Of a stretch of 20,160 nt of DNA, positions 4,451-17,862 are shown in pieces. Made by a program: the position numbers and the translations under genes. Position 1 is the stretch's first letter, and every line of letters starts with the position of its first letter. The notes below the pieces were generated by a model that was given only the letters and a program-made list of their open reading frames with translations, was not told where the DNA came from and ran no database searches. The DNA is taken from positions 1 to 20,160 of the IMG/VR virus record IMGVR_UViG_3300021136_000072. One strand, given 5' to 3'. Source of the stretch: a virus.

Positions 4451-4648
4451 ATGAAACCCCATGTAACTAAAGAGCATATGGAGCCAATGGCTGGTCCAGA
4501 TATGGAGCGCCATGATGAGTTCATTTCTGAGCATGAAACTGAGAGCCATAAGCATCATAAGCATGAATTCAAAAAGCACAAAGCTTCGCATGAGCACCAT
4601 ATGGATCATGTAGAAAAAATGTGTCACGGTGGCAAGGCTCACAAATGA
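4451..4648 (+). CDS. Very histidine-rich small protein
   Basis: A 65-residue protein with 15 histidines (23%), mixed with Glu, Lys and Met, for example HKHHKHEFKKHKASHEHHMD. A single Cys sits near the C-terminus in KMCHGGKAHK, whose GGK motif echoes the neighbouring proteins. AGGAG at 4440-4444 precedes the ATG by 6 bases, and the stop overlaps the next gene's ATG (ATGA). The composition suggests metal (zinc, nickel or copper) binding or pH-dependent charge. I do not recognise the family. The strong ribosome binding site and operon position argue that it is a real gene. Confidence 0.65.
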   Translation: MKPHVTKEHMEPMAGPDMERHDEFISEHETESHKHHKHEFKKHKASHEHHMDHVEKMCHGGKAHK

Positions 4649-4905
4649 GAGCCAGTCGTGGAATGGGCGCAGTAAACCCTTCCAAGATGCCCAGTAGAAA
4701 GATTATCCAAAGAAAGGATAATCCTGATGCTGTTGCGATGTATGCAAAAGGTGGGGAAGTTTGGGATAAACCTCGTCCGAAAGGACTTGGAAAACCTAAG
4801 CATTTAAGTGCTGCTAAAAAGTCAAAAGCTAAAGCAATGGTGAAAGCTGCTGGCAGGCCTTACCCAAATTTAGTTGACAATATGAGAGCTGCAAGGAAAA
4901 AATAA
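4645..4905 (+). CDS. Small basic conserved phage protein
   Basis: 86 residues starting at the ATG that overlaps the previous stop as ATGA; an in-frame upstream GTG at 4621 is less likely. The N-terminus MRASRGMGAVNPSKMPSRKI, then IIQRKDNPDAVAMYAKGGEV, and the C-terminal PKGLGKPKHLSAAKKSKAKA and AAGRPYPNLVDNMRAARKK are blocks I recognise as a recurrent small protein of environmental podovirus-like genomes. It is very rich in Lys, Arg, Ala and Pro and could bind nucleic acid, but its role is unknown. It lies just upstream of the adaptor gene, so it may act in DNA packaging or head completion; this is inferred from position only. Confidence 0.75.
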   Translation: MRASRGMGAVNPSKMPSRKIIQRKDNPDAVAMYAKGGEVWDKPRPKGLGKPKHLSAAKKSKAKAMVKAAGRPYPNLVDNMRAARKK

Positions 4906-5084
4906 TGGCTGAAAAATGGATTCAACACGCTATTAAACGAGCTGGTGCTTTGAGAGAAGCGCTGCACGTAAAAGAAGGCCATAAAATCCCAGAAAAGAAG
5001 CTGGAAGCTGCCGCTAAGAAGCCTGGAAAGTTAGGTCAACGTGCTCGTCTTGCTGAAACTCTTAAAGGTTTTAAGCATAAATAA
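4905..5084 (+). CDS. Very small basic phage protein (59 aa)
   Basis: ATG at 4905 overlaps the previous stop (TAATG) and the TAA stop at 5082-5084 overlaps the ATG of the adaptor gene, so the frame fits exactly between its neighbours. The product begins MAEKWIQHAIKRAGALREAL, continues HVKEGHKIPEKKLEAAAKK and ends GKLGQRARLAETLKGFKHK. WIQ-AIK-xxGALR, KKLEAAAKKPGKLGQRARLAETL is a conserved small-protein pattern I recognise from many marine and freshwater phages. It is probably helical and DNA- or RNA-friendly because of its charge; function unknown. It is below the usual 60-residue cut-off and easily missed by gene callers. Confidence 0.8.
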   Translation: MAEKWIQHAIKRAGALREALHVKEGHKIPEKKLEAAAKKPGKLGQRARLAETLKGFKHK

Positions 5085-6049
5085 TGACTACTACTGGAGC
5101 ATCCGTATTTGATTTAAACATGAACGAACTCGTAGAAGAGGCGTTCGAGCGGTGCGGTGCTGAATTAAGAACGGGTTATGATTTAAGAACGGCTACTCGG
5201 TCATTAAATATTTTGACTGTTGAGTGGGCCAATCGAGGTATTAACCTTTGGACGGTAGAAGAAGGTCAGATCCCCATGAATACGGGTCAGATTACCTATC
5301 CATTGCCAATTGACACAATTGATTTATTAAGCCAAGTGATTCGTACTGGGACGCTGCAAAACCAGATCGACATTAACATTAGCCGTATTTCTGAAGATAC
5401 TTACTCCACCATTCCTAATAAATTGGCCGTTGGCAGACCTATTCAAGTATGGATCAATCGTCAATCTGGTCAAACCAATCCTACGGCTTATACTCTTGTT
5501 GGCAACGGCTCTAATGGTAATGGCGGCATCTCTGCTACAGATACCACGATTCAGCTTACTCCAGCTGATTTAACGGGTCTTGCAGCCACTGGTTATATCA
5601 AAATAGACTCTGAGATTATCTACTATCCAAATGTCTCTACGACCTCTGCACAGCTGTTAAATTGCTATCGTGGACAGGCTGGCACAACGGCTGCAACACA
5701 TGCCACTTCTGCGCCAATTAGCACAACCAATTTGCCGTGTATCAACGTCTGGCCTACCCCCAATTCACCAGGTAGTCAATACACATTTGTCTACTGGCGT
5801 TTGCGTAGAATTCAAGATGCTGGTTCTGGCGTTACAACCAACGATATTCCATTCCGTTTTATTTCAGCTTTAGTGGCTGGATTAGCATACTATTTATCCC
5901 AGAAGGTTCCTGGCGTTGATCCAAATAGAATAGCCATGCTGAAAGCAGACTACATGGAACAATGGACGCTGGCATCCGAAGAGGATCGTGAAAAAGCGCC
6001 CGTACGCTTTGTGCCACGAGCTTCTTTTTATACGGGGGGTAGACGGTAA
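5084..6049 (+). CDS. Head-tail adaptor / P22 gp4-like tail accessory protein with inserted beta domain
   Basis: 321 residues. The N-terminal helical part (NELVEEAFERCGAELRTGYD, then LRTATRSLNILTVEWANRGINLWT) and the Y-PLPIDTIDLLSQVIRTGT block are typical of podovirus adaptor proteins that attach below the portal and extend the connector. IPNKLAVGRPIQVWINRQ ends the first half; INVWPTPN and FVYWRLRRIQDAG resume it. Between them, residues about 130-215 form an apparent insertion with a TTIQLTPADL strand, GYIKIDSEIIYY and a CYRGQAGTTAATHATSAPI motif seen as a mobile beta module in other phage proteins. The C-terminal ISALVAGLAYYLSQKVPGVD helix packs the adaptor bundle. It connects DNA-filled heads to the tail; exact subfamily uncertain. 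Confidence 0.8.
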   Translation: MTTTGASVFDLNMNELVEEAFERCGAELRTGYDLRTATRSLNILTVEWANRGINLWTVEEGQIPMNTGQITYPLPIDTIDLLSQVIRTGTLQNQIDINISRISEDTYSTIPNKLAVGRPIQVWINRQSGQTNPTAYTLVGNGSNGNGGISATDTTIQLTPADLTGLAATGYIKIDSEIIYYPNVSTTSAQLLNCYRGQAGTTAATHATSAPISTTNLPCINVWPTPNSPGSQYTFVYWRLRRIQDAGSGVTTNDIPFRFISALVAGLAYYLSQKVPGVDPNRIAMLKADYMEQWTLASEEDREKAPVRFVPRASFYTGGRR

Positions 6050-6573
6050 TGCCTGATTTAAAGCTTACCCCTCAAGAAAAAAATATTGTTCAATATCATA
6101 GGGATAATATTGCATTTAACAATGTTGGCACTGGCCCACAAGGAGAGCCTGTGACTGTATATAGCACAGGCGTAACTATGGATAGCGGGCCCCACAAAGG
6201 TAAGTCTGCATTAGTTCCTGGTTATATCCAAGGCAAACAATATGAAGATCCAGATCTTATTCGAGAATATTGGCGTACAGATATAAACAAAGGTAAGTTC
6301 CCTATTTATAATACTCCTGAAGAAGGAGATAAACGGGCTAAAGAAATACACAAAATTATGGACGAAGAAGTTGGCGCTGCTGAAAAAGCTGGTAGAGCAT
6401 CAAAATCTGAACAATATAAAAAAGGCGGTGCGGTACAAGATAAATACCGCAAAGAAAAGTTAGTCAAAGGATATTCTGGTCAGCCCACTAGTCAGACTAG
6501 AGTATTTAATGGAACTATAGTACGTGGTCACGGCATCGAAACGAAGGGCAAGACTAAAGGCAGGATAGTTTAA
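6049..6573 (+). CDS. Conserved phage protein with KGKTKGRIV tail
   Basis: 174 residues in two parts. The N-terminal ~110 residues (LTPQEKNIVQYHRDNIAFNN, then a VTMDSGPHKGKSALVPGYIQGK strand pair and KGKFPIYNTPEEGDKRAKEI-HKIMDEE helix) resemble a small domain common in podovirus virion-region genes of the type Y-x-x-P-T-x-x-G-K...FPSYxSExEAExR...MH. Its function is not established. The C-terminal ~60 residues are basic and probably disordered: YKKGGAVQDKYRKEK and finally VRGHGIETKGKTKGRIV, the clearest copy of the tail shared by several small genes here. It starts in a TAATG overlap with the adaptor gene and ends in another with the next gene. Confidence 0.7.
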   Translation: MPDLKLTPQEKNIVQYHRDNIAFNNVGTGPQGEPVTVYSTGVTMDSGPHKGKSALVPGYIQGKQYEDPDLIREYWRTDINKGKFPIYNTPEEGDKRAKEIHKIMDEEVGAAEKAGRASKSEQYKKGGAVQDKYRKEKLVKGYSGQPTSQTRVFNGTIVRGHGIETKGKTKGRIV

Positions 6574-7007
6574 TGCCTAGTAAATATGCATCAGGCAAAT
6601 ATGCTATTGCCCAATGTGATAGATGTGGCTTTAGATACAAGTTGATGGATTTAAAGAAAGAAATTATCAAGACAAAACTTTATAATATTAAAGTTTGTCC
6701 TGAATGTTGGGATCCAGATCAGCCACAGTTGAGCTTGGGATTATATCCTGTGAATGATCCTCAGGCGGTGCGTGAGCCTCGCCCAGACGTAAGTTATCAA
6801 GTTGGCGGTACTTATGGGTTAATGACCAATCCATATGACCCAAATGTAAACGCTCTTGATAGTGCAGGCTACTCATCTGATGGCAGTAGGCAGATACAAT
6901 GGGGTTGGAACCCTGTAGGTGGTGCAAGTTATTTTGACAGTTATTTAACTCCAAACTCCTTGCTTCCTGTTATAACAATCGGTACAGTATCAATTACAAC
7001 GACTTAG
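6573..7007 (+). CDS. Zinc-ribbon phage structural-region protein
   Basis: 144 residues. CDRC at residues 15-18 and CPEC at 42-45 form a four-cysteine zinc ribbon with a 23-residue linker (GFRYKLMDLKKEI in between). The ribbon is followed by WDPDQPQLSLGLYPVNDPQA and VREPRPD, a proline-rich block that I recognise as a recurrent pair with this ribbon in podovirus-like genomes. The C-terminal third is low-complexity and beta-prone, ending GTVSITTT. Zinc would stabilise the N-terminal fold; the partner could be DNA or another virion protein. The gene sits between adaptor-region genes, so a connector or head-completion role is likely but not shown. Confidence 0.75.
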   Translation: MPSKYASGKYAIAQCDRCGFRYKLMDLKKEIIKTKLYNIKVCPECWDPDQPQLSLGLYPVNDPQAVREPRPDVSYQVGGTYGLMTNPYDPNVNALDSAGYSSDGSRQIQWGWNPVGGASYFDSYLTPNSLLPVITIGTVSITTT

Positions 7008-7017
7008 GAGTATTAAA

Positions 7018-7242
7018 ATGGATAAAGAAGATATCAAACAAGACAAAAAGCTCATTAAAAAAGCTTTTGGTATGCATGACAAACAAGAACATCATGGCGA
7101 ACATACTGATCTTTCTGGCCTGAAAAAAGGCGGTAAGATTAAAAAGATGGCTAAAGGTGGCGTGACAGGCAAAGAAATGAAAGCTGTCGGCCGCAATATG
7201 GCCCGTGCTATGAATCAAAAATCAAGCTCAAGAGGTCGTTAA
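7018..7242 (+). CDS. Small Lys/Gly-rich protein with GGK repeats
   Basis: 74 residues. The N-terminus MDKEDIKQDKKLIKKAFGMH followed by DKQEHHGEHTDLSGL is a short helical domain I have seen on small proteins of environmental phages. It is followed by KKGGKIKKMAKGG, the same basic GGK-IKKMA-GG module found in the His-rich protein at 3781-4437, then VGRNMARAMNQKSSSRGR. TAGGAG lies 7 bases before the ATG. No catalytic residues are visible; the protein is likely partly disordered and nucleic-acid or phospholipid binding is possible because of its charge. Confidence 0.7.
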   Translation: MDKEDIKQDKKLIKKAFGMHDKQEHHGEHTDLSGLKKGGKIKKMAKGGVTGKEMKAVGRNMARAMNQKSSSRGR

Positions 7243-7243
7243 T

Positions 7244-7558
7244 ATGGCAACCGCAAAGAATGTAAAGCCTACAACCAAGAATAGCCCAAAGGTTACAATT
7301 GGTAAGAATAAATTTGCTGAACCAGCAGATACTTATGCCAATCCGCACACCAATAAAGAAAAGCATATTACTGGCCAAGAAGTGATGGATCGTGGTGAGT
7401 TTGTCCATACCAAATCAGCTAAAGATGCTAAGTTAACAGATCCTGTTAAAAGCGGTGTTTGCTACGCTGAAACCAAAGAAACTAAAACTTCTGGCATAGA
7501 AATGCGTGGCGCAGGCGCAGCAACTAAAGGACGCATGTCCAGAGGCCCAATGGCATGA
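7244..7558 (+). CDS. Small conserved phage protein with basic C-terminal tail
   Basis: 104 residues, charged and low in hydrophobic residues, begun 1 base after the preceding stop with AGAGG upstream. A central segment (HITGQEVMDRGEFVHTKSAK) is followed by DAKLTDPVKSGVCYAETKET and the C-terminal KTSGIEMRGAGAATKG then RMSRGPMA. The last 20 residues are a diverged form of the RGxGAATKGRxxRG tail seen on other small genes. Function unknown. Its stop overlaps the start of the next gene (ATGATGA), linking it to the second adaptor protein. Confidence 0.7.
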   Translation: MATAKNVKPTTKNSPKVTIGKNKFAEPADTYANPHTNKEKHITGQEVMDRGEFVHTKSAKDAKLTDPVKSGVCYAETKETKTSGIEMRGAGAATKGRMSRGPMA

Positions 7559-8484
7559 TGACATACCAGCAGCTGTGGCAAGCGATTCAAGATTACGCTG
7601 AAACCACAGAGTCACTCTTTGTAGCAAATATTCCCCTGTTTGTTCAGGAGGCGGAAGACCGCATCTATAATTCGGTGCAGATTCCTTCCTTACGGAAAAA
7701 TGTTACAGGTAACTTAACTGCTGGTAATCCTTATTTATCGTTGCCAATGGACTATCTATCAACCTATTCATTGGCTATTATTGATAGTAGTGGCAACTAC
7801 AATTACATTTTGAATAAAGATGTAAACTTTTTGCGTCAGTCATTCCCCAATCCAAATACCACTGGAATGCCTTATTGTTACGCCCTTTTTGGGTCACAGT
7901 TGGCTAATATCAATGAATTGTCATTGATTATTGGGCCTACGCCAGATTCCAATTACACGGCAGAATTGCATTATTATTACTATCCGACAACCATTGTTCA
8001 GGGTCAAATTAACATTTGGAATATTGTTAATCCAGGATCTAGCTATGCTGCTGGAACCTACGAAAATATACCGTTGACAGGCGGAACGGGTTCTGGCGCT
8101 ATTGCCACGATTGTTGTTGGAAATACCAGCACGGTGACATCCGTTACCATTACTAATGGCGGTAATTACTATGTTGTTGGCGATCAATTAAGCGCTGCTA
8201 CCACCAATTTGGGCGGTGGTACTGGTACAGGGTTTACCCTTACGGTTACTAGCATATCAAATGCTACAGGCACCAGCTGGCTTGGTGATAACTATGACCC
8301 AGTGCTTTTTTATGGCGCTATGCGTGAAGCGATGCTTTTCCAGCGTCAAGAGGCCGATGTTATTAAATCTTATGAAGAGAAGTACCAAGAGGCTCTTGCA
8401 CAACTCAAACGCCTTGGAGATGGTCTGGAGCGTAATGATGCTTACAGACGTGGTCAAACTAGCCTACCTTATAACAGACTATAA
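7555..8484 (+). CDS. Second adaptor-like connector protein with inserted beta domain
   Basis: 309 residues; two adjacent ATGs (7555 and 7558) are both possible starts. The N-terminus MMTYQQLWQAIQDYAETTES, then IPLFVQEAEDRIYNSVQIPS and a LSLPMDYLSTYSLAIIDS strand, and the C-terminal WLGDNYDPVLFYGAMREAM, Glu/Ala-rich helix and RLGDGLERNDAYRRGQT are typical of phage adaptor (tail-connector) proteins of podoviruses. Residues about 150-238 look like an insertion between PTTIV and TSWLGDN: a glycine-rich beta module with GGTGSGAIATIVV, VTSVTITNGGNYYVVGDQLS and GTGTGFTLTVTSIS. The same module occurs in fibre proteins of other phages. It would project from the connector. Position and family suggest it links the first adaptor to the tail hub. 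Confidence 0.8.
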   Translation: MMTYQQLWQAIQDYAETTESLFVANIPLFVQEAEDRIYNSVQIPSLRKNVTGNLTAGNPYLSLPMDYLSTYSLAIIDSSGNYNYILNKDVNFLRQSFPNPNTTGMPYCYALFGSQLANINELSLIIGPTPDSNYTAELHYYYYPTTIVQGQINIWNIVNPGSSYAAGTYENIPLTGGTGSGAIATIVVGNTSTVTSVTITNGGNYYVVGDQLSAATTNLGGGTGTGFTLTVTSISNATGTSWLGDNYDPVLFYGAMREAMLFQRQEADVIKSYEEKYQEALAQLKRLGDGLERNDAYRRGQTSLPYNRL

Positions 8485-8486
8485 CT

Positions 8487-8945
8487 ATGCCAATCTTCCA
8501 AGCCGCTTGTAATGTGTTCCAGCAAAATTTGCTCAATGGTAATGAGAACTTTACCAACGGCACTTATTACATTGCTTTATACAATGCCAATGCCAATTTG
8601 AACGCCACCACCACGGCCTATACCACAGTAAATGAGGTTACAGGAACGGGTTATACGGCTGGCGGAATACCATTAGTAATATCCCAGACCCCTACGATTA
8701 ATAACCAATACAACACGACTTACGTGTCATTTCAAAACGCAGTTTGGAGTCCTGCTGCGTTTACTTGTAGGGGTGCATTGGTATATAATTACACTACAAA
8801 AGCAGCTTGTTTTGTGTTGAATTTTGGGTCTGATAAGACTTGTAACAACAGCTTTACGGTGACTTTCCCAGCAGCGACTTACTCGTCTGCTATTTTAACG
8901 ATTAGTAGTTATACGGATGCAAACGTAGTCAGTTCAGGCGATTAA
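8487..8945 (+). CDS. Fibre/baseplate-type structural protein (conserved phage family)
   Basis: 152 residues. It begins with a short helix (FQAACNVFQQNLLNGNENFT) and then GTYYIALYNANANLNATTTA with TTVNEVTGTGYTAGGIPLV, followed by VSFQNAVWSPAAFTCRGALV and YNYTTKAACFVLNFGSDKTC. This order (IALY, then EVxGTGYTAGG, then VxW-xxFTxRGAxxYN, then LxFGxD) is a recurrent phage virion-protein family with no established biochemical role. It is nearly all beta. It starts 2 bases after the adaptor gene, opening the series of fibre-type genes. Confidence 0.7.
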   Translation: MPIFQAACNVFQQNLLNGNENFTNGTYYIALYNANANLNATTTAYTTVNEVTGTGYTAGGIPLVISQTPTINNQYNTTYVSFQNAVWSPAAFTCRGALVYNYTTKAACFVLNFGSDKTCNNSFTVTFPAATYSSAILTISSYTDANVVSSGD

Positions 8946-8954
8946 GGAGATTTC

Positions 8955-9557
8955 ATGACTAAAGAATTATCAAATTTTGGCGATCAAGCCGTGGCAACAT
9001 TACAAGCTAATGCTGTTATCCCAGAAGGTATGGGCGTAGAAGGTTACTACCATGTAGAGTGCCGTGATGCAAATGGCAATCTTAAATGGACAGATGACCT
9101 TCCTAACCTGGTTGTTGCCGTAGGTAAACAGCTAATGCTCAATACCTTATTGACAACATCTGGCACATATACCACTGTTGGACCATTTTTAGGTTTGATT
9201 TCTAATAGCTTTACTGCTTCAGCATCAGACACAATGGCTTCCCATACATGGACAGAGTTTACTAACTACACGGTTAGTGGTTCAGCAGTTCGTGGTACAG
9301 CCGTATTTGGCGCAGCAACCTCTACTGGTTCTACACCATCTAACGTAACTTCATCTACCGCTACTGCTATTACATACACTATTACTGGTGCTGGTGGTAC
9401 TATTTATGGTTGCTTCTTGGTAACTGGTACTAGCGCTGTAAGCACACAAAGCTCAACAGCTGGTGTTTTATACAGTGAAGGATTGTTTAGTACAGCTAAA
9501 ACAACTACATCTGGTGATACAGTTTCGGTAACATATTCGACTACTGCTACTAGCTAA
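8955..9557 (+). CDS. Putative tail/fibre structural protein
   Basis: 200 residues. The N-terminal part contains GVEGYYHVECRDANGNLKWT and LPNLVVAVGKQLMLNTLL, a pattern I recognise from phage virion proteins in which a short beta hairpin (V-E-x-x-D-A-N-G-x-x-K-W) precedes a conserved N-x-V-x-x-x-G-K-x-x-(L) helix. The remainder is Thr/Ser/Ala/Gly-rich beta sequence, including YTITGAGGTIYGCFLVTGTS. AAGGAG at 8944-8949 gives a strong start. Likely part of the tail tip or a fibre base; specific role unknown. Confidence 0.65.
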   Translation: MTKELSNFGDQAVATLQANAVIPEGMGVEGYYHVECRDANGNLKWTDDLPNLVVAVGKQLMLNTLLTTSGTYTTVGPFLGLISNSFTASASDTMASHTWTEFTNYTVSGSAVRGTAVFGAATSTGSTPSNVTSSTATAITYTITGAGGTIYGCFLVTGTSAVSTQSSTAGVLYSEGLFSTAKTTTSGDTVSVTYSTTATS

Positions 9558-9567
9558 GGAGCTTTAA

Positions 9568-10275
9568 ATGGCTCTAGTGATAGCGGATCGTGTCCAGCAG
9601 CAGGGATCGGCCAATACTACTGTTAGTTTTACGCTCAGTTCGGGCGTAACAGGGTATCAATCGTTCTCTGTTATTGGTAACGGCAATACAACTTACTATT
9701 CTGCAACCGATGCTTCTGGTAACTGGGAGGTCGGTGTTGGAACCTATTCAACCACTGGACCAACATTAACTCGTACTACCATTATCTCCTCTTCCAATTC
9801 GGGAAGTGCTGTATCTACATTTGGTAACCCAGTAAACGTATTTGTTACTTATCCATCCGAAGACGCTGTATACGCAAACGGCACAGTATTAGTTGCTCCT
9901 AGTGGCGCATTACTACCAACCGCTAACGGTGGTACAGGAACATCAGGCTTAAGCGGATACGTTTACGGCAATGGTGGTTCTGCTATGACGGCTAGCACCA
10001 CAATCCCTACTAGCGCTTTATCTGGCACTGTACCAATCGCTAATGGCGGAACAGGTCAAATTACAGCTAGCGCAGCATTTAACGCATTATCACCAATTAC
10101 TACAACTGGTGATTTAATCATTGGTAACGGCACAAACAGCGCAACACGTCTTGGTATTGGCACTAGTGGATATGTTTTAACCTCTAATGGTACAACAGCT
10201 TCTTGGCAGACACTTCCTGCATCGGGCGTAACTAAAGCACAAAGTATTGCTTATGCCATGACCTTGGGCTTCTGA
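9568..10275 (+). CDS. Tail fibre protein with GGTG motifs
   Basis: 235 residues. The N-terminal ~100 residues (ALVIADRVQQQGSANTTVSF, then GYQSFSVIGNGNTTYYSATD, GNWEVGVGTYSTTGPTLTRT and VNVFVTYPSEDAVY) are a familiar anchoring domain of short phage tail fibres. It is followed by fibre-shaft motifs: TANGGTGTSGLSG, then IANGGTGQITASAAFNALSP, GDLIIGNGTNSATRLGIGTS and GYVLTSNGTTASWQT. The GGTG-containing repeat is common in collagen-free trimeric shafts. It ends VTKAQSIAYAMTLGF with no receptor-binding tip, so it may be a base or adaptor fibre to which other tip proteins attach. AAGGAGC precedes the ATG. Confidence 0.8.
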   Translation: MALVIADRVQQQGSANTTVSFTLSSGVTGYQSFSVIGNGNTTYYSATDASGNWEVGVGTYSTTGPTLTRTTIISSSNSGSAVSTFGNPVNVFVTYPSEDAVYANGTVLVAPSGALLPTANGGTGTSGLSGYVYGNGGSAMTASTTIPTSALSGTVPIANGGTGQITASAAFNALSPITTTGDLIIGNGTNSATRLGIGTSGYVLTSNGTTASWQTLPASGVTKAQSIAYAMTLGF

Positions 10276-10296: not shown

Positions 10297-10701
10297 ATGG
10301 CAAACCCAAACATTGCAGCACTAACCTCTATATATGGCAACACGGCTTATGTGGTTCCATCGACAACGGCAGCTACTGCTACATGGACTTATAACGGCTC
10401 AACATCACTCACTGGCTTAACACCAGCGTCTGGCACCGTTAATAAAATTACTGGATTGATTGTGTCTAACACAACTGCTTCAGCTGCTTATGCAACTGTT
10501 GGTGTGGGCAACAACGCCACGTTCGGCTCTGCTACAGTGATTGGCTACTTGGCTTATCAGATCTCTGTACCAGCCAACGCTTCTTTGATCGTGGTTGATA
10601 AAACCACTGATCTGTATATCACGGAGAATCAATCTGTTGGTGTGACTTCTGGTACAGCTTCTGCGCTGACCTACACAGCAATTTTTGAGGCAATCTCATA
10701 A
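10297..10701 (+). CDS. Putative virion-associated beta protein
   Basis: 134 residues, Thr/Ala/Ser-rich and beta-prone, with AAAGGA upstream of the ATG. Segments ITGLIVSNTTASAAYATVGV and SVPANASLIVVDKTTDLYI followed by ITENQSVGVTSGTASALTYT match small phage virion proteins found beside fibres (a short jelly-roll-like arrangement is plausible). No catalytic motif is seen. It ends directly before the RCC1 series; its stop codon lies in the left arm of an inverted repeat whose right arm contains the start of the next gene. Confidence 0.6.
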   Translation: MANPNIAALTSIYGNTAYVVPSTTAATATWTYNGSTSLTGLTPASGTVNKITGLIVSNTTASAAYATVGVGNNATFGSATVIGYLAYQISVPANASLIVVDKTTDLYITENQSVGVTSGTASALTYTAIFEAIS

Positions 10702-10712
10702 TTTATTATGAG
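10695..10712 (+). promoter_or_regulatory. Inverted repeat spanning a stop and a start codon
   Basis: CTCATAA (10695-10701) and TTATGAG (10706-10712) are perfect inverted copies separated by TTTA. The left arm carries the stop of the upstream gene and the right arm the ATG of the first RCC1 gene, which has no properly spaced Shine-Dalgarno. In mRNA the start codon could be held in a weak 7-bp hairpin that a ribosome ending the upstream gene would open, giving translational coupling. The stem is AT-rich, so its stability is uncertain. Confidence 0.4.
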
Positions 10713-11844
10713 TGAAAGATATGTAGGTGCTTGGCTTACTGATGGCGGATTTAATCCGCTGACTGCGCCTACGCCTAGTTACACATATAATTTATACGCT
10801 TGGGGGGATAATTCTCAAGGTCAATCAGGTCTTGGAAATACAACAACATATTCATCACCTAAACAAGTTGGCTTTTTAGCCAATTGGTTAAGTGTTTCTA
10901 GTGGCATGTATTTTACAATGGCAATTAAAACAGACGGCACACTTTGGACTTGTGGATACAATACTGTTGGCCAACTAGGACTTGGAAACACAACTAATTA
11001 CTCTTCACCCAAACAAGTAGGCGCATTAACAAATTGGCTAAACGGTTCTTGTGGAACCAATTATTGTGCGGCAATAAAAACTGATAACACCCTTTGGACA
11101 TGGGGTGGCAATACCACTTTTGGGCAACTAGGTTTAGGAAATAGAACAAGCTATTCCTCACCAAAACAAGTTGGATTACTGACTAATTGGTTGATTGTTT
11201 CATGCGGTCAGTATCATACAATGTCTATTAAAACTAACGGAACATTATGGGCTTGGGGAAGAAGTGACTCTGGTCAGTTAGGGTTAAATAACGGAACATA
11301 TTATTCTTCTCCTAAACAAGTTGGATCTCTTACTAACTGGGCAAATATTGTTTGCGGAACTGGTTGTTCTATCGCTATAAAAACAGATGGGACATTATGG
11401 GGTTGGGGAATAAATACAAGTGGTCAATTGGGTATAGGCACTTATACCAATATTTCTAGTCCACAACAAATTGGCGCTTTAGCAACTTGGTCAAAAATAG
11501 CCACAGCAAGTGTAAGCACTTTTGCAATTAAAACCAATGGCTCTTTGTGGGGTTGGGGGTCAAGCAACTATGGACAATTAGGCATCAACAACACAACAAA
11601 TTATTCATCTCCAAAACAAATTGGATCTTTAACGACTTGGAACACTGTCACAGGGTTAAGATATTCTACTTTAGCAATAAAAACTGACGGAACCCTATGG
11701 TCTTGGGGCCAAAATAGTACCGGTCAATTAGGAATAGGAAATACAACAGCATATTCATCTCCAAAACAAGTGGGACTTTTAACTACATGGGCTGTGCTAC
11801 CTAAAGGTACACAAACAACTTCAGCTTTTGGATTAGCTTACTAA
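10708..11844 (+). CDS. RCC1-type seven-bladed beta-propeller protein A
   Basis: 378 residues: a ~28-residue leader (SERYVGAWLTDGGFNPLTAP) then seven repeats of about 50 residues. Each repeat has the form LW-x-WG-x-N-x-x-GQLG-x-x-N-x-T-x-YSSPKQVG-x-L-x-x-W, then a variable ~10-residue segment and A-IKTDGT. This is the RCC1 repeat, and seven copies make one full propeller. The last strand (TSAFGLAY) would pair with the first to close the ring. Eukaryotic RCC1 binds Ran and chromatin, but nothing here implies that; propellers often mediate protein or glycan binding. With its position among fibre genes, a virion tip or receptor-binding protein is the best inference. No signal peptide and no clear Shine-Dalgarno are present. 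Confidence 0.85.
   Translation: MSERYVGAWLTDGGFNPLTAPTPSYTYNLYAWGDNSQGQSGLGNTTTYSSPKQVGFLANWLSVSSGMYFTMAIKTDGTLWTCGYNTVGQLGLGNTTNYSSPKQVGALTNWLNGSCGTNYCAAIKTDNTLWTWGGNTTFGQLGLGNRTSYSSPKQVGLLTNWLIVSCGQYHTMSIKTNGTLWAWGRSDSGQLGLNNGTYYSSPKQVGSLTNWANIVCGTGCSIAIKTDGTLWGWGINTSGQLGIGTYTNISSPQQIGALATWSKIATASVSTFAIKTNGSLWGWGSSNYGQLGINNTTNYSSPKQIGSLTTWNTVTGLRYSTLAIKTDGTLWSWGQNSTGQLGIGNTTAYSSPKQVGLLTTWAVLPKGTQTTSAFGLAY
10792..11844 (+). repeat. Seven RCC1 repeats in protein A
   Basis: Seven tandem units of roughly 150 bases. The invariant core (WG-x-x-x-x-GQLG and SSPKQ) is also repetitive at DNA level (CCAAAACAAGTTGG-like segments), while the segment between blades varies in sequence and slightly in length. 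Confidence 0.85.
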
Positions 11845-11845
11845 T

Positions 11846-13009
11846 ATGCCAATAACCTACCCCTACATCCAATACGGTGGCATCTGGACAACAAGCCAAG
11901 CCACTGATGCCGTTGCCTCTGGCACTTGGGCTGTTCCACCTACGCCTAAGTTATATGCTTGGGGCCAAAATAATTATGGACAATTAGGATTAGGAAGCAC
12001 AACAGCTTACTCTTCTCCTAAACAAGTTGGCACATTAACCACGTGGCTAACCGTATCTAGCGGTCTTTATTTTGCTGCAGCTATTAAATCCGATGGCACT
12101 CTTTGGATGTGGGGAAGAAATAATCAAGGGCAGTTAGGATTAGGAAATACAACATCCTACTCATCTCCAAAACAGGTTGGAGCGTTAACGAATTGGTCAA
12201 AAATATCAACTGAATTTAGTAGTGCAGCCACACCATTTACTGTAGCAATTAAAACTGATGGAACACTTTGGTCCTGGGGGTACAATGCTCAAGGCCAACT
12301 TGGCCTTGGAAATCAGACTTATTATTCATCGCCTAAACAAATAGGCGTGTTAACAAACTGGTTAACTTTATCTAATCAATATAATCACGTAATCTCTGTT
12401 AAAACCGATGGTACTTTATGGGGTTGGGGTGGTAATGCCCAAGGACAACTTGGGCTTAATAATCGGACCAATTATTCATCTCCTAAACAAATTGGAGCCT
12501 TAAATAATTGGTCTGTCGCTACAGCAGCAACAAATGCTACTTTAGCTATTCAAACCAACGGAACTTTATGGGCTTGGGGTTTTAGTTCGTTTGGGCAATT
12601 AGGAAGAGGTGGAAATGGAAAATATTCTTCTCCAGTACAAGTGGGTTCCCTTACTAATTGGCTAAACATAACTAGCAGTAGATATAGTATGCTGGCAACA
12701 AAAACCGATGGTACTCTATGGTCTTGGGGATTTAACAGTTTTGGACAATTAGGTTTGGGTAATACAACAAACTATTCATCTCCAAAGCAAGTTGGGTCTT
12801 TAACCAATTGGTCAACAATAAGTGGCGGAAGATATGTATTTGCTAGTATTAAACCAGACGGCACTCTTTGGATGTGGGGAAATAATACTCAAGGTCAATT
12901 AGGCTTTGGAAACACAACATATTATTCATCGCCAAAACAAGTTGGATCTTTAACTTCTTGGTTAAATATTTCAGCAAATTATGGCACTTTAGGCATTGCA
13001 AAAACATAA
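11846..13009 (+). CDS. RCC1-type seven-bladed beta-propeller protein B
   Basis: 387 residues, a paralogue of the preceding protein. The leader differs (MPITYPYIQYGGIWTTSQAT, then GTWAVPPTPKLYAWG) and is followed by seven RCC1 repeats, again one complete ring. Blade 5 is the most diverged (FGQLGRGGNGKYSSPVQVG), while the other six keep YSSPKQ-(V/I)-G. The protein closes with a TLGIAKT strand. No transmembrane segment or secretion signal is visible. It starts 1 base after protein A without a convincing ribosome binding site, so coupled translation is likely. A 61-base spacer with a promoter-like site follows. It is a candidate receptor-binding or fibre-tip protein, inferred from location. Confidence 0.85.
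   Translation: MPITYPYIQYGGIWTTSQATDAVASGTWAVPPTPKLYAWGQNNYGQLGLGSTTAYSSPKQVGTLTTWLTVSSGLYFAAAIKSDGTLWMWGRNNQGQLGLGNTTSYSSPKQVGALTNWSKISTEFSSAATPFTVAIKTDGTLWSWGYNAQGQLGLGNQTYYSSPKQIGVLTNWLTLSNQYNHVISVKTDGTLWGWGGNAQGQLGLNNRTNYSSPKQIGALNNWSVATAATNATLAIQTNGTLWAWGFSSFGQLGRGGNGKYSSPVQVGSLTNWLNITSSRYSMLATKTDGTLWSWGFNSFGQLGLGNTTNYSSPKQVGSLTNWSTISGGRYVFASIKPDGTLWMWGNNTQGQLGFGNTTYYSSPKQVGSLTSWLNISANYGTLGIAKT
11951..13009 (+). repeat. Seven RCC1 repeats in protein B
   Basis: Seven tandem ~150-base units. A 26-base stretch at 12143-12168 is identical to 15662-15687 in protein C, showing recent shared ancestry or exchange between the separated paralogues. Confidence 0.85.
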
Positions 13010-13044: not shown

Positions 13045-13070
13045 AATCCCCCCAAGAGGAGGATATACCC

Positions 13071-14843
13071 ATGAAAAAAACATTACATTTTCTGTCTGGA
13101 ATTCCACGTTCAGGCTCTACAGTATTAGCTGCTATTCTTAACCAAAACCCAGAAACCCACGTCAGCACAACTTCTGGCTTGGTTCATGCGCTAGATGGTC
13201 TTGCCAATACTTGGCATTCTGCTGGGTTACTTAATGAAAACGACCCAGACCGCAAGAAGTTAGCGCAGACTATGCGTGGCATGATTGATGCGTTCTATGA
13301 GGACACTGATAAGCCCGTAGTAATCGACAAAGGTCGTGGTTGGCCTATTCCCATCATTATGGGCGCTATGACTCAGGTATTAGGTCACGCACCAAAGATC
13401 ATCGCTACAGTACGCCCTGTACCAGACTGTATGGCTTCTTTTGTACGAGTAGCAAAGCCCGAAGACCTTGATGAGTTCATGTACTCAGGACAGTTGGCTG
13501 ACCACTTAAAGGCAGCTTATATCTCCCTACAGCAAGGCTATGAAGCCATGCCAGAGAACTTCCTGTTTGTAGAGTACGACAACCTACTCGCAGACCCTAA
13601 AAAAGAATTAGACCGCATCCATGAGTTCCTTGGATTAGCGCCATTTGAGTATGACTTGTCTAACATTGACGGCACACCAGTAAAAGAAGATGACGAGAAC
13701 CTACATGGTTACGCTGGTATGCACGACATCAAGCCAGAGCTAAAGAAACAGCACTCAGACCGCTCGCAAGATCTATTAAAGCATCACTACAATCAGTTCT
13801 GCCAGCCAGAGTTCTGGAATGACAACAAGCGCACTATGCCTGAGTTAGATGACTTAGACTTGCAGTTAGCCGCTGGTAAAATCGGTGACTTTGTTGAGGG
13901 ATGGAGACTATCTGAGAAGCTACATGCCGAGCGCCCAACAGACCATCGTGCAGCCTATAACCGTTCATGGTACTTACTCAAGCAAGGAAAGGTGCGGGAA
14001 GGCTATAAAGAGATGGATCGAGGACGTTTCTGTGGAATCATTGGCGAGCGTCATCCAGACACCCCAATGCCAGAATGGGACGGGCGTTCTAAAGGCACAA
14101 TCTTGCTCTATTGCGATCATGGATTAGGCGATCAGATCCATCAAGTACGCTATGCTAAAGACTTAGTTGCCCGTGGTAATAAAGTGATTGTTTGCTGTTC
14201 TGGTCAACTGGCGCAGTTGTTTTCCCAAGTTGAAGGTGTGTCTGCTGTGATTCAGCATGGTGCTGAGTATGGTATTTACCATGACTTTTGGGCGTTTGCT
14301 ATGGTAGCTCCAAACTACCTTGGCTATGAGATGAGTGACCTTAAAGGCGCACCATACATTCCTAAGCCAAACGTCATCAAAGGCCGTAAAAAGCGCATTG
14401 GATTGCGTTGGCAGGGTAACTCTAAGTTCGAAGATGACCATAACAAGAAGTTCCCATACAACTTGTTATTTAATGCGGTACAAGGTGCTGACTATGAGTT
14501 CATCTCATTGCAGCGTGACGAAGGCGCAGATGCTTGCCCACCATGGGTAAAACGGGTATCATTAGATAGTTGGCAAGATACCCAGGCAGCAGTAGCGTCT
14601 TGTGACTTGGTGATCTCGTCATGCACCTCAGTAAGCCATTTGGCAGCCGCTATGGGCATTGAGACTTGGGTAGTTATTCCAGTGATGGGTTACTACCTGT
14701 ACGCTTTAGATGGCGATACATGCCCGTACTACGACAACATGACCTTGTTCCGCCAAGAAGTATTTGGTGAATGGCAAACTCCGTTTGATCGCATTAAGGC
14801 TAAACTAACAGTAGAAAAACCACAGATAAGAATGGTAAGTTAA
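13071..14843 (+). CDS. Sulfotransferase - helical (TPR-like) linker - GT-B glycosyltransferase fusion
   Basis: 590 residues in three parts. Residues 1-250: sulfotransferase; the 5'-phosphosulfate loop is SGIPRSGSTVL (9-19), a DKGRGWP motif is at 86-92, and the 3'-phosphate-binding R-x3-D-x3-S is VRPVPDCMASF (R115, D119, S123). It should take sulfate from PAPS. Residues ~260-320: helical, resembling a TPR pair (FVEGWRLSEKLHAERPTDHR, YNRSWYLLKQGKVREGYKEM). Residues ~340-580: GT-B domain of the GT9/TPR-associated type, with GLGDQIHQVRYAKDLVARG (351-369), IGLRWQGNSKF (443-453) and CDLVISSCTSVSHLAAAMG (511-529). Sugar donor and acceptor are unknown. The fusion suggests consecutive sugar addition and sulfation of one acceptor. 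Codon use is visibly more GC-rich than in the RCC1 genes on either side, suggesting separate origin. Confidence 0.85.
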   Translation: MKKTLHFLSGIPRSGSTVLAAILNQNPETHVSTTSGLVHALDGLANTWHSAGLLNENDPDRKKLAQTMRGMIDAFYEDTDKPVVIDKGRGWPIPIIMGAMTQVLGHAPKIIATVRPVPDCMASFVRVAKPEDLDEFMYSGQLADHLKAAYISLQQGYEAMPENFLFVEYDNLLADPKKELDRIHEFLGLAPFEYDLSNIDGTPVKEDDENLHGYAGMHDIKPELKKQHSDRSQDLLKHHYNQFCQPEFWNDNKRTMPELDDLDLQLAAGKIGDFVEGWRLSEKLHAERPTDHRAAYNRSWYLLKQGKVREGYKEMDRGRFCGIIGERHPDTPMPEWDGRSKGTILLYCDHGLGDQIHQVRYAKDLVARGNKVIVCCSGQLAQLFSQVEGVSAVIQHGAEYGIYHDFWAFAMVAPNYLGYEMSDLKGAPYIPKPNVIKGRKKRIGLRWQGNSKFEDDHNKKFPYNLLFNAVQGADYEFISLQRDEGADACPPWVKRVSLDSWQDTQAAVASCDLVISSCTSVSHLAAAMGIETWVVIPVMGYYLYALDGDTCPYYDNMTLFRQEVFGEWQTPFDRIKAKLTVEKPQIRMVS

Positions 14844-16075
14844 TGAGCTATCGGTATTCTAATTCCTTCATTGACCCAGGGTTAAACACCCTGACTAGTC
14901 CATCCCCCTCTGGATCATACACCCAATATGGAGGCATCTGGAAACTCTCCGCAGCAAGCGCAGCTCAGGGGGCTGGCACTTGGGCTACTCCGCCAGCTCC
15001 TCATCTATTAAGTTGGGGAAATAATAATAACGGCCAATTAGGCATTAGTAACATTACTAATTATTCTTCTCCTAAACAAGTAGGAGCATTAACAAATTGG
15101 TCTGTTATTTCTGCTCAAAATATTGCGTTTGTTTCCATTAAAACAGATGGTACTTTATGGTCTTGGGGCGCTAATAATTTGGGTCAATTAGGAAACGGTA
15201 ATACTACCAAATATTCATCACCAAAACAAGTGGGCGCTTTAACAAACTGGTTAAAAGTTTCTTGCGGTTCTTACCATGCGGTCGCCATCAAAACTGATGG
15301 CACAGCTTGGGTATGGGGATATAATTATTCTGGTCAATTAGGTATTTCAACAAACGCTGGTGTAGTTACCGCTGGAGCAACATCGCCTGTTCAACTAGGA
15401 GCGCTGACAAATTGGTCAAAATCTTTTTGTGGCGGTCAAAATTCTTTTGCGATTAAAACAGATGGCACTCTATGGGCTTGGGGAAATAACGGTCAAGGTC
15501 AACTAGGCTTGGGAAATAGAACAAATTATTCATCTCCAAAGCAAGTTGGTTCATTAACAAATTGGCTTAGCATTGCATCTGGTTATTATTTAACAGTTGG
15601 ATTACAAACAAATGGCACAATTTGGTCTTGGGGGCAAAATAACTACGGGCAATTAGGCCTTGGAAATACAACATCCTACTCATCTCCTAAGCAAGTTGGG
15701 TCTCTTACTACATGGCTAAACGCAACAGCAACTTATGGTTCTGTAACTGCTATCAAAACTGACGGCACTCTCTGGTCTTGGGGGTATAACACAGCTGGCC
15801 AATTAGGTATAGGAAACACAACCAATTATTCGTCCCCTAAGCAAATAGGATCCCTAACCAATTGGGCTGTAATATCTGGGGCTGGCGCTTCTCAAGCAGC
15901 AATATATGGCATTAAATCAGATGGCTCTTTATGGGCTTGGGGGTATAACGCTCAGGGGCAATTAGGACTAGGAAACATAACAAATTATTCTTCTCCAAAA
16001 CAAGTTGGTTCATTAACTACATGGTCAACAATTTCAATAAGCCAAAATTCAACATTTGGTATAGCAAAAACTTAA
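14843..16075 (+). CDS. RCC1-type seven-bladed beta-propeller protein C
   Basis: 410 residues, third paralogue. Its leader combines features of the other two: YRYSNSFIDPGLNTLTSPSP resembles the start of A, and YTQYGGIWKLSAASA...GTWATPPAPHLLSWG resembles the leader of B. Seven RCC1 repeats follow, giving one full propeller. Blade 3 carries an insertion (ISTNAGVVTAGATSPVQLG in place of the usual YSSPKQVG loop). It ends TFGIAKT, almost the same closing strand as B. The ATG overlaps the sulfotransferase stop (TAATG), so propeller and modifying enzyme are translationally coupled. Likely a fibre-tip or receptor-binding protein, by context. Confidence 0.85.
   Translation: MSYRYSNSFIDPGLNTLTSPSPSGSYTQYGGIWKLSAASAAQGAGTWATPPAPHLLSWGNNNNGQLGISNITNYSSPKQVGALTNWSVISAQNIAFVSIKTDGTLWSWGANNLGQLGNGNTTKYSSPKQVGALTNWLKVSCGSYHAVAIKTDGTAWVWGYNYSGQLGISTNAGVVTAGATSPVQLGALTNWSKSFCGGQNSFAIKTDGTLWAWGNNGQGQLGLGNRTNYSSPKQVGSLTNWLSIASGYYLTVGLQTNGTIWSWGQNNYGQLGLGNTTSYSSPKQVGSLTTWLNATATYGSVTAIKTDGTLWSWGYNTAGQLGIGNTTNYSSPKQIGSLTNWAVISGAGASQAAIYGIKSDGSLWAWGYNAQGQLGLGNITNYSSPKQVGSLTTWSTISISQNSTFGIAKT
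15005..16075 (+). repeat. Seven RCC1 repeats in protein C
   Basis: Seven tandem ~150-base units homologous to those of proteins A and B, with one longer unit (blade 3). Confidence 0.85.
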
Positions 16076-16091: not shown

Positions 16092-16484
16092 ATGGCATTA
16101 TATGTACAAGTATTAAACAATGAAGTTAAACAGTGTATCGACACCTTACCTGCTGAAGGCGTAGGTAATGCTGGATGGAAGAACGCAATTGAAGTTCACC
16201 CAACCATCATTCCAAATCGTCAAGGTTACACAGCGCACACATTTGATCTAACTCAAGATCCAGTGCAAATCGTGTACGGCACATTTGACATTCCTGTAGC
16301 AGATCGTCAGGCTGGCATGATTGCTAACGCTAATTTTGAAGTAAGTCAATTACTCCAAGGTATGGCACGTGATCCATCTATATTTGATGCGACTAAAGTA
16401 TCTGCTGCTCAGTCTGCTGCTGCGACCAAAATTGCGGCTATTGAAGCTGCTACAACGCACGACCAATTGGATGCTATTCAGTGA
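16092..16484 (+). CDS. Small fibre-associated protein (possible fibre assembly protein)
   Basis: 130 residues, with AAAGGAG before the ATG. The N-terminal part (YVQVLNNEVKQCIDTLPAEG, GWKNAIEVHPTIIPNRQGYT, then FDLTQDPVQIVYGTFDIPVADRQ in pieces) is beta and resembles the short segment phages carry beside fibres, in which a residue string of the type P-V-x-I-x-Y/W-x-x-x-D-x-P-V-x-x-R occurs. The C-terminal ~50 residues are alanine-rich helix (VSAAQSAAATKIAAIEAATT). The layout is reminiscent of tail fibre assembly proteins, but I do not recognise the family firmly. The stop overlaps the GTG start of the methyltransferase. Confidence 0.6.
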   Translation: MALYVQVLNNEVKQCIDTLPAEGVGNAGWKNAIEVHPTIIPNRQGYTAHTFDLTQDPVQIVYGTFDIPVADRQAGMIANANFEVSQLLQGMARDPSIFDATKVSAAQSAAATKIAAIEAATTHDQLDAIQ

Positions 16485-17029
16485 AACTAAATTTGGGTTG
16501 TGGGTACAATAAGTTTGATGGCTACGTCAATGTAGACCATGATTCCCTGTGCCAGCCCGATATCGTTGCAGACCTAGAAGACCGATTGCCTTTTGAAGAT
16601 AACTCGGTGGATGAGATTATTATGTATCACGTCTTGGAGCATTTGGGTCAGGATGTAAAGACTTACTTTTCTATATGGAAAGAGCTTTACCGCATTCTCA
16701 AAAATGACGGAGAGTTGAAAATTACGGTTCCCCACTGGAACCATGAAAACTTCCATCACGATCCTACCCATGTCCGCAAAGTGACTCCTGTTGGCGTTAA
16801 TATGTTTAGTCAAAAGAAAAATCGCCAGACGATTGAAGAAAATGGTCAAGAAACAACACTAGGGTTACAACTAGGAATAGATATAGAGGTTGTTGGCGTA
16901 CACTATGATTTATCGCCTTGGTTCCAGCAAGCTATGCAGGGTCAACCCAGAGAAATAGTGGAAAGGGAAATGGGGCGATATAACAATAGTTGTCATCAAA
17001 TCCACATCTATGCAAAGGCGATTAAATGA
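16481..17029 (+). CDS. Class I SAM-dependent methyltransferase
   Basis: 182 residues from a GTG that overlaps the upstream stop (GTGA). Motif I is LNLGCG at residues 3-8; an acidic residue follows in YVNVDHDS; LPFEDNSVDEIIMYHVLEHL (about 36-55) is the Methyltransf_11-type motif with the usual post-motif HVLEH; ELYRILKNDGELKITVPHW is the beta-strand 5 region. A His-rich segment, NHENFHHDPTHVRKVTP, is typical of the envelope/glycan-modifying branch rather than DNA methyltransferases; no DPPY-type motif exists. The substrate is unknown; a sugar or lipid-linked acceptor is plausible given neighbouring sulfo- and glycosyltransferase domains. The next gene overlaps by ATGA. Confidence 0.8.
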   Translation: MKLNLGCGYNKFDGYVNVDHDSLCQPDIVADLEDRLPFEDNSVDEIIMYHVLEHLGQDVKTYFSIWKELYRILKNDGELKITVPHWNHENFHHDPTHVRKVTPVGVNMFSQKKNRQTIEENGQETTLGLQLGIDIEVVGVHYDLSPWFQQAMQGQPREIVEREMGRYNNSCHQIHIYAKAIK

Positions 17030-17862
17030 AAAAGATCCTCATCATGGGCTTGCCAGGTTCTGGTAAGACTTATTTAGCACAAGCATTAAAAGCTTATTTA
17101 GAAGAGCATGGGGAAATGTCCTATGCTAGAGCATTACAAGAGCATATTGTTGATCTTGGTTGCCAAGTGACTTGGTTCAATGCCGATGAAGTGCGTAAGA
17201 AATATAACGACTGGGATTTCTCAAAAGAAGGGCGTATTCGTCAATCTCTACGCATGGCTGAGTTTGCGCTGTCCGCTGGCGGTGATTATGTGATCTGTGA
17301 TTTTGTAGCGCCCTTGGTTGAGATGCGTAACAACTTCAAAGCAGACTGGACAATCTGGGTCGATACCATTGACGCTGGTCGGTTTGAAGATACCAACAAA
17401 GCGTTCGTGCCTCCAGAGGTGTACGACTTCAGAGTAACGGAACAAAACTGCGAGAAATGGGCTGAGTTCATTGGCAACCACATTATTGAGAATCGCAGAC
17501 GCCCTACCTTTGATTGGCAAAAAGAGACAGTACAAATGTTAGGCAGGTGGCAGCCGTGGCATGTGGGCCACAGAGCGCTATTTGAACGCTCTATAGCTAA
17601 GACTGGTCAAGTAGTTATTCAGATTCGTGACTGTCAAGGCTGGCAGGGTTCCAACCCATTTGCCATAGAGCAAGTTAAGGGCTATATCAAGCGTGATCTA
17701 GATCCGTTGTATCAAGGACAGTATGAAATCCAAGTAGTGCCAAATATTGTAAATATCACCTATGGACGTGATGTTGGCTATAAAATTGAGCAAGAAAGCT
17801 TTGATAAATCAGTAACTGATATTAGTGCTACAAAAATCCGCAAGGAGATGGGAATTGAGTGA
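17026..17862 (+). CDS. APS-kinase-like P-loop domain fused to an HxGH nucleotidyltransferase domain
   Basis: 278 residues. Residues 1-160: a P-loop kinase (GLPGSGKT at 8-15) with WFNADEVR at 50-57 in the place of the LDGD-x-(V/I)-R of CysC, NDWDFSKEGRIRQSLRMAE at 61-79, VICDFVAPL at 89-97, IWVDT at 110-114 and FEDTNKAFVPPE at 120-131, all characteristic of adenylylsulfate kinases; these phosphorylate APS to PAPS, the sulfate donor. Residues 165-278: a nucleotidyltransferase with GRWQPWHVGH (HVGH at 179-182) and ISATKIR at 266-272, as in NMN adenylyl- or cytidylyltransferases. A segment of ~15 extra residues precedes the DEVR motif. Whether the second domain makes APS, NAD or a nucleotide sugar cannot be told from motifs. 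It could supply PAPS to the sulfotransferase encoded 2.2 kb upstream. Confidence 0.8.
   Translation: MKKILIMGLPGSGKTYLAQALKAYLEEHGEMSYARALQEHIVDLGCQVTWFNADEVRKKYNDWDFSKEGRIRQSLRMAEFALSAGGDYVICDFVAPLVEMRNNFKADWTIWVDTIDAGRFEDTNKAFVPPEVYDFRVTEQNCEKWAEFIGNHIIENRRRPTFDWQKETVQMLGRWQPWHVGHRALFERSIAKTGQVVIQIRDCQGWQGSNPFAIEQVKGYIKRDLDPLYQGQYEIQVVPNIVNITYGRDVGYKIEQESFDKSVTDISATKIRKEMGIE

Follow-up and report, generated by a model that had tools for sequence, protein, structure and literature searches.

The window, by which we mean the whole stretch of 20,160 nucleotides of viral DNA that was analysed (IMG/VR record IMGVR_UViG_3300021136_000072), carries a gene that starts at ATG and remains open throughout, specifying a single chain of 590 aa in which a predicted sulfotransferase is joined through a TPR-like helical module to a predicted glycosyltransferase of the GT-B type. 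The gene was delimited from its reading frame, Pfam domains, superpositions of a structural model and the maintenance of the fusion in viral contigs, and its features are as follows.

13057..13062, + strand: AGGAGG ribosome-binding site of the fusion gene, read from the sequence
13071..14843, + strand: sulfotransferase-TPR-GT-B fusion gene, 590 aa
13071..13844, + strand: predicted sulfotransferase domain, residues 1-258
13104..13121, + strand: predicted 5'-phosphosulfate (PAPS) loop PRSGST, residues 12-17, invariant across 16 diverse sequences
13413..13439, + strand: predicted 3'-phosphate motif R115...D119...S123, with R115 and S123 invariant
13845..14042, + strand: TPR-like helical module, residues 259-324
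14079..14822, + strand: predicted GT-B glycosyltransferase domain, approximately residues 337-584
14121..14132, + strand: GLGD motif, residues 351-354, with invariant D354 in alignments
14619..14630, + strand: SCTS motif, residues 517-520, in which Cys518 aligns with Asp in bacterial TPR-glycosyltransferase relatives

An earlier note, made from the DNA letters, had read the motifs PRSGST, R-D-S, GLGDQI (residues 351-356) and CDLVISSCTS-V-SHL (CDLVISSCTSVSHL, residues 511-524) in one polypeptide, and all of them are present. The domains that it assigned from these motifs were compared with known structures by AlphaFold2 modelling. A first model, derived from close relatives only, was mediocre (pLDDT 70) and was replaced by a second and good one derived from 16 diverse relatives (pLDDT 88, pTM 0.73). 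In the second model the best match of residues 1-258 is to tyrosylprotein sulfotransferase 1 (TPST1; Z 19.7, 242 residues, 3.7 A), a superposition in which the sulfotransferase fold spans the whole N-terminal domain. The helical linker of the earlier note corresponds to residues 259-324, which match the TPR of AspH with an rmsd of 1.6 A over 65-66 residues. The GT-B fold on which the note had staked its reading of the C-terminal half is likewise found, residues 342-583 superposing on E. coli WaaC (Z 16.3, 229 residues, 3.2 A), residues 329-587 on TibC (Z 15.5, 242 residues) and the GT-B half on the GT9 structure 3tov (Z 15.4). The fusion is real and, as modelled, so are both of its folds.

The N-terminal half is matched above the Pfam cut-offs by Sulfotransfer_3 (5.8e-16, 59.8 bits against a cut-off of 27) and Sulfotransfer_1 (1.3e-8), in agreement with the earlier placement of a sulfotransferase there. 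In an alignment of 16 fusion sequences with identities down to 42%, R13, S14, G15, S16, T17, D86, K87, R89, W91, R115 and S123 are invariant. The note had also raised the prospect of degenerate catalytic residues, and here the outcome is divided: the PAPS-binding residues are intact, whereas an equally invariant Thr34 occupies the column that holds Glu in an olefin-synthase sulfotransferase and, in TPST2, E99, the catalytic Glu of that enzyme. PAPS-dependent sulfotransferases use a His or Glu located between the two PAPS motifs as their catalytic base (PMC6637879). Residues 17-115 of the aligned fusions have no invariant His or Glu; D86 is invariant and could act as the base in the predicted sulfotransferase. 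The Glu is also absent from unfused phage relatives and from a bacterial relative (AAMSSP), which makes its absence look like a trait of the subfamily rather than decay of the window's gene.

One could nevertheless take Thr34, and the lack of Glu in further members of the subfamily, to mean that the glycosyltransferase half alone is a conventional enzyme, and that the sulfotransferase-fold half has lost its transfer chemistry and binds the acceptor, the donor or another protein. We regard such a loss as rather improbable, given the invariance of the PAPS-binding residues, D86 and K87, the very low dN/dS and the presence of an APS-kinase-like gene that tracks the sulfotransferase and not the glycosyltransferase. 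The fusion has the sulfotransferase fold (Z 19-19.7) and PAPS motifs in common with TPST1 and TPST2, and the same features are common to it and RaxST, a bacterial protein-tyrosine sulfotransferase (PMC6637879); it is, however, only 13-16% identical to these enzymes and has Thr34 in place of their catalytic Glu. Its filing as a TPST was rejected on the absence of an E99-type catalytic Glu.

Filing of the C-terminal half under GT9 was rejected as well, since Glyco_transf_9 (PF01075) matches it below the curated cut-off (E 0.25, 11.1 bits against 22); what the model contains is a GT-B fold, and G351, G353, D354, C518, T519, S520 and H523 are invariant in the 16 sequences. Bacterial TPR-glycosyltransferases have a homologous glycosyltransferase domain, TPR helices and the conserved GD motif, and profile matches in bacterial genomes, down to 6.7e-63, extend over both the helices and the domain. 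These bacterial proteins differ from the fusion in having no sulfotransferase joined to them in the genomes sampled, and in having D-T ahead of an H-L-A segment where the phage branch has C-T. All 155 ORFs that matched in the fetched phage loci have C-T, whereas Asp is present in 12 of the 13 bacterial loci sampled, and because of Cys518 in place of Asp we file the phage glycosyltransferase as a branch separate from the bacterial family. TibC, a bacterial autotransporter heptosyltransferase, is a cytosolic WaaC-like GT-B enzyme that adds sugar to a repetitive surface protein (PMC4358343), and it provides a precedent for enzymes of this kind acting on surface proteins. The likeness seen between the fusion and TibC or the BAHT family is one of fold: TibC is 11% identical, uses ADP-heptose as donor, has no sulfotransferase half and forms a dodecamer with added parts of its own, and the dodecamer with iron and family-specific parts are the marks of that family. 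Stand-alone phage glycosyltransferases of 324-369 aa also exist (L148-L162); those that were aligned share the SCTS motif, and an RCC1 gene was undetected in 14 of these 15 loci.

The earlier note had proposed a search for the same fusion elsewhere. A scan of IMG/VR yielded 59 loci, 44 of them with the whole fusion and no internal stop, and the 26 full-length fusions that were aligned are 63-96% identical; further scans, started from an alignment and from a distant relative, added many more, down to ~42% identity. Among the bacterial genomes scanned, the fusion occurred in three MAG contigs only, the longest of which (L129) has ORFs that were read by eye as phage terminase, portal and capsid-like genes. 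The 185 genomes of one bacterial class included ~30 with the glycosyltransferase or the sulfotransferase alone, and both lay in one frame only on L129. The idea of a host gene taken up ready-fused was rejected on this basis, the search of the class having returned single-domain relatives and one fusion, on a phage contig in a MAG. The dN/dS ratio is ~0.03-0.09 in both halves where it was estimable, many comparisons being saturated at synonymous sites. The fusion is thus conserved, virus-borne and under strong purifying selection, and many lake and sea phages carry it among genes of the tail-fibre type.

The genes that surround the fusion in the window are the following.

9568..10275, + strand: fibre-base protein, matching the N-terminal part of the S74 fibre (1201 aa) found in sibling phages
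10297..10701, + strand: small protein of 134 aa, present alongside the cassette in 75 of 92 loci
10708..11844, + strand: RCC1-repeat protein, candidate fibre component and acceptor (PF00415 3.3e-68, 7 stretches)
11846..13009, + strand: RCC1-repeat protein, candidate fibre component and acceptor (PF00415 2.5e-69, 7 stretches)
14843..16075, + strand: RCC1-repeat protein, its start codon overlapping the fusion gene's stop codon (PF00415 4.7e-74, 7 stretches)
16092..16484, + strand: small protein of 130 aa that accompanies the fusion, in 68 of 92 loci, with no Pfam match
16481..17029, + strand: methyltransferase (Methyltransf_11 6.3e-9), a relative of which is fused to a glycosyltransferase in phage BUCT-ZZ01
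17026..17862, + strand: APS-kinase-like protein (APS_kinase 3.7e-10) with an NMNAT-like nucleotidyltransferase as its C-terminal half

The overlap with the third RCC1 gene is the TAATG at 14841-14845. Of the 114 ORFs in the fetched loci that fuse the sulfotransferase to the glycosyltransferase (ST-GT), 87 have an RCC1 gene no more than 300 bp away, as do 58 of the 81 that fuse the glycosyltransferase to a methyltransferase (GT-MT); these counts are not independent, the loci being related by descent. A further set of relatives (n = 23) was picked by the structural gene at 5084-6046, each with 7.5 kb or more of sequence downstream. Neither RCC1 nor ST-GT genes are present in 21 of them, both are present in one (on a contig also listed as L007), and the remaining one has a glycosyltransferase-type gene only, upstream and on the other strand. 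In phages whose structural gene is 89% identical, the place of the cassette is taken by a 1201-aa Peptidase_S74-chaperone fibre; its position there, and the match of its N-terminal part to gene 9568, put the RCC1 genes at a tail-fibre position, so that the fibre locus suspected in the earlier note is borne out. One such sibling (L256:8106-11711), with the S74 fibre replacing the RCC1/ST-GT cassette, presents a fibre-type switch. The same observations bear on the proposal that the fusion is an auxiliary metabolic gene serving the sulfur or glycan metabolism of the host, with no role in the virion. Sulfotransferases of phages have been counted as metabolic genes (PMC10580990), but the fixed place of this one among fibre-position genes, its loss together with the RCC1 genes and the absence of the fusion from the host genomes sampled render a purely metabolic role scarcely credible.

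The DNA of the window and that of L007 are ~99% identical over 4613-9896, except for 6054-6571 (where there is no long match), and 96% identical from 18054. Their RCC1 proteins are only 59-63% identical, as against 90% for the ST-GT protein (86% at the DNA level), which indicates that the RCC1 proteins diverge fast while the enzyme is kept. Receptor-binding parts of phages often diverge fast. RCC1 proteins are hypervariable between near-identical phages, and the second and third of the window share a segment ahead of their repeats, YGGIW..S.A..A...GTWA.PP.P.L..WG, that is perhaps an attachment part. We infer that RCC1 proteins belong to the virion in the phage family of the window; in phage phAPEC6 the RCC1-type "DNA condensation proteins" gp549 and gp551 were found among the virion proteins by mass spectrometry (PMC7247149). 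A literature search for a link between RCC1 proteins and sulfotransferases in phages found no relevant paper among those it covered.

Unfused and differently fused forms of the same domains occur in cultured Synechococcus phages. The gene order in S-SRM01 is long tail fibre distal subunit, RCC1, a hypothetical gene, RCC1, TPR-glycosyltransferase, several small genes, RCC1 and sulfotransferase, with a nucleotide-sugar epimerase further along. The two halves of the fusion are thus separate genes in this phage, gp338 (TPR-glycosyltransferase, 27% identical) and gp345 (sulfotransferase, 29% identical), each of them immediately preceded by an RCC1 gene in the vicinity of the long tail fibre. The same fibre locus holds gp347 (L332:27237-28772), annotated as a beta-1,4-glycosyltransferase, which is a second glycosyltransferase-methyltransferase fusion, composed of GT2 and Methyltransf_24. 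In BUCT-ZZ01, UTS52179.1 has a homologous glycosyltransferase domain (33% identity, with the SCTS motif), differing from the fusion in that it lacks the sulfotransferase half and is joined instead to a C-terminal methyltransferase, which is 32% identical over 179 aa (E 8e-32) to the product of 16481-17029 in the window; it comes after a tail fibre and a 14-repeat RCC1 protein. This GT-MT form recurs in ~80 IMG/VR loci (L166-L245), where it mostly stands just after RCC1-repeat proteins of up to ~2000 aa. Sulfotransferase and glycosyltransferase are separate neighbours also in AG-345-E08 and several IMG/VR loci. Among 50,697 phage records, the matches to the glycosyltransferase half and the top RCC1 matches fell in the same three phages, with the exception of one weak glycosyltransferase match elsewhere. 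Taken together, the unfused and re-fused arrangements and the phages matched in common would argue that glycosyltransferase, sulfotransferase and methyltransferase act on one shared product.

A further association is that of the fusion with the gene at 17026-17862. Its product exceeds the Pfam cut-off for APS_kinase but differs from APS kinase in being fused to an NMNAT-like half; it scores 32.2 bits with NCBIfam apsK, far below the cut-off of 138.7, and for this reason we call it "APS-kinase-like". The second half is an NMNAT-like HxGH nucleotidyltransferase. About half of the relatives have the kinase half alone, which marks the kinase as the constant part, and APS_kinase is the best Pfam family for such kinase-only relatives in two of three tested (1.2e-15 and 6.1e-15), the third being below cut-off. 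Of 56 ST-GT loci, 47 have an APS-kinase-like gene no more than 6.5 kb downstream, as against 1 of 56 GT-MT loci (Fisher value 7e-21, which overstates the case, as the loci are related), and both GT-MT loci that have any such kinase also carry ST-GT. Relatives with 35-39% identity exist in Stenotrophomonas, Xanthomonas and Clavibacter phages. The two regions that were read around the kinase relatives of Stenotrophomonas and other phages have no annotated sulfotransferase, on which ground we rejected the kinase as proof of PAPS supply.

From these observations we propose that the fusion combines two enzymatic activities and decorates RCC1-repeat fibre proteins of the phage itself, a reading to which we give an even chance of being right. 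The decoration would take place while the RCC1 proteins are being made: the GT-B half would transfer a sugar onto an acceptor on them, and the sulfotransferase half would attach sulfate, drawn from PAPS, either to that sugar or to a nearby part of the RCC1 protein. The methyltransferase encoded next to the fusion may cap this glycan, with the APS-kinase-like neighbour as a possible source of the PAPS. The observed basis of this model consists of the fusion, its folds, the selection on it, the RCC1 linkage, the unfused pair in S-SRM01 and the co-occurrence of the kinase; we infer both activities, the acceptor, the order of the steps and any benefit, be it in receptor binding or in protection from host enzymes. 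Against the model stand Thr34 in the position of the catalytic Glu of TPST2, Cys518 in that of the bacterial Asp, and the stand-alone glycosyltransferases of L148-L162, for most of which an RCC1 gene went undetected. A wider scheme, which we offer tentatively as possible though on balance doubtful, is a sulfation system for virion proteins or glycans in which ST-GT acts on RCC1 fibres, a phage kinase makes PAPS and ST-GT, GT-MT and sulfotransferase alone are interchangeable modules. Modification of virion proteins by phage-encoded enzymes is known, and what is unusual here is the fusion and the possible chemistry, sulfation; we know of no described sulfated phage fibre. Phage sulfotransferases have been met repeatedly, and their function was called unclear in a report on OM43 phages (PMC10580990); phage RCC1 proteins carry annotation as chromosome-condensation factors. 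The RCC1 linkage provides a joint hypothesis for both, that of decorated fibres, testable in S-SRM01 and BUCT-ZZ01. If it is true, receptor-binding parts of phages bear sulfated groups, with a bearing on how fibres recognize their hosts.

The earlier note had left the choice between the phage's fibres and the host envelope as target. The LPS heptosyltransferases WaaC and RfaF are among the closest solved glycosyltransferase structures, and bacterial sulfotransferases often act on surface glycans, so that the fusion might modify the host surface (LPS core, O-antigen or capsule) with a sulfated sugar that blocks competing phages, or the adsorption of the phage's own progeny to debris. The gene is located, however, among RCC1 genes at a fibre position, one of which it overlaps, the glycosyltransferase follows RCC1 genes in unrelated cyanophages too, and no membrane-anchoring helix pattern is evident in the model. 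Modification of the fibres is favoured, and we consider the host surface an unlikely target.

Another possibility is direct, TPST-like sulfation of RCC1-repeat tyrosines by the sulfotransferase half, with other residues as the targets of the glycosyltransferase half. Among solved structures, those of tyrosylprotein sulfotransferases come closest, and Tyr precedes the SSP of the repeats in 77-86% of repeats where the ST-GT is at least 70% identical to that of the window, as compared with Arg or Lys in 85% of GT-MT loci. This contrast is confounded by lineage, however, the residue being mostly Arg with ST-GT proteins of less than 60% identity and in L047. Acidic residues, which are usual near sulfated tyrosines, are rare in these RCC1 proteins, and the catalytic Glu is missing; direct tyrosine sulfation seems to us highly unlikely. 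The Tyr before SSP was retained as a suggestive lead only and not as the acceptor, as it follows lineage, with exceptions in L047, L129, L130 and L244.

The composition and signals of the gene bear on how the cassette was assembled. The separate spacer (61 bp) and strong ribosome-binding site of the earlier note are there, but its promoter-like site is not distinguishable from chance, a consensus search having found 4 such sites against 3.5 expected. The GC content that the note had thought richer than that of the neighbours is so with respect to the RCC1 genes (46.3% against 39-41%; GC3 0.45 against 0.25-0.28), but not with respect to the downstream methyltransferase and kinase genes, whose GC3 of 0.43 is nearly equal. 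Acquisition as a unit can accordingly be kept in part: the fusion gene is horizontally shuffled, but it travels with RCC1 genes, with gene 16092 and often with the methyltransferase and APS-kinase-like genes, and the shared GC3 and accompanying RCC1 genes led us to reject its acquisition alone. Elsewhere in the window, directly after a capsid-like gene, the AT-rich segment 820-1404 (GC 0.32) is a GIY-YIG gene of the homing-endonuclease type (TIGR01453 8e-21) that looks like a free-standing homing endonuclease.
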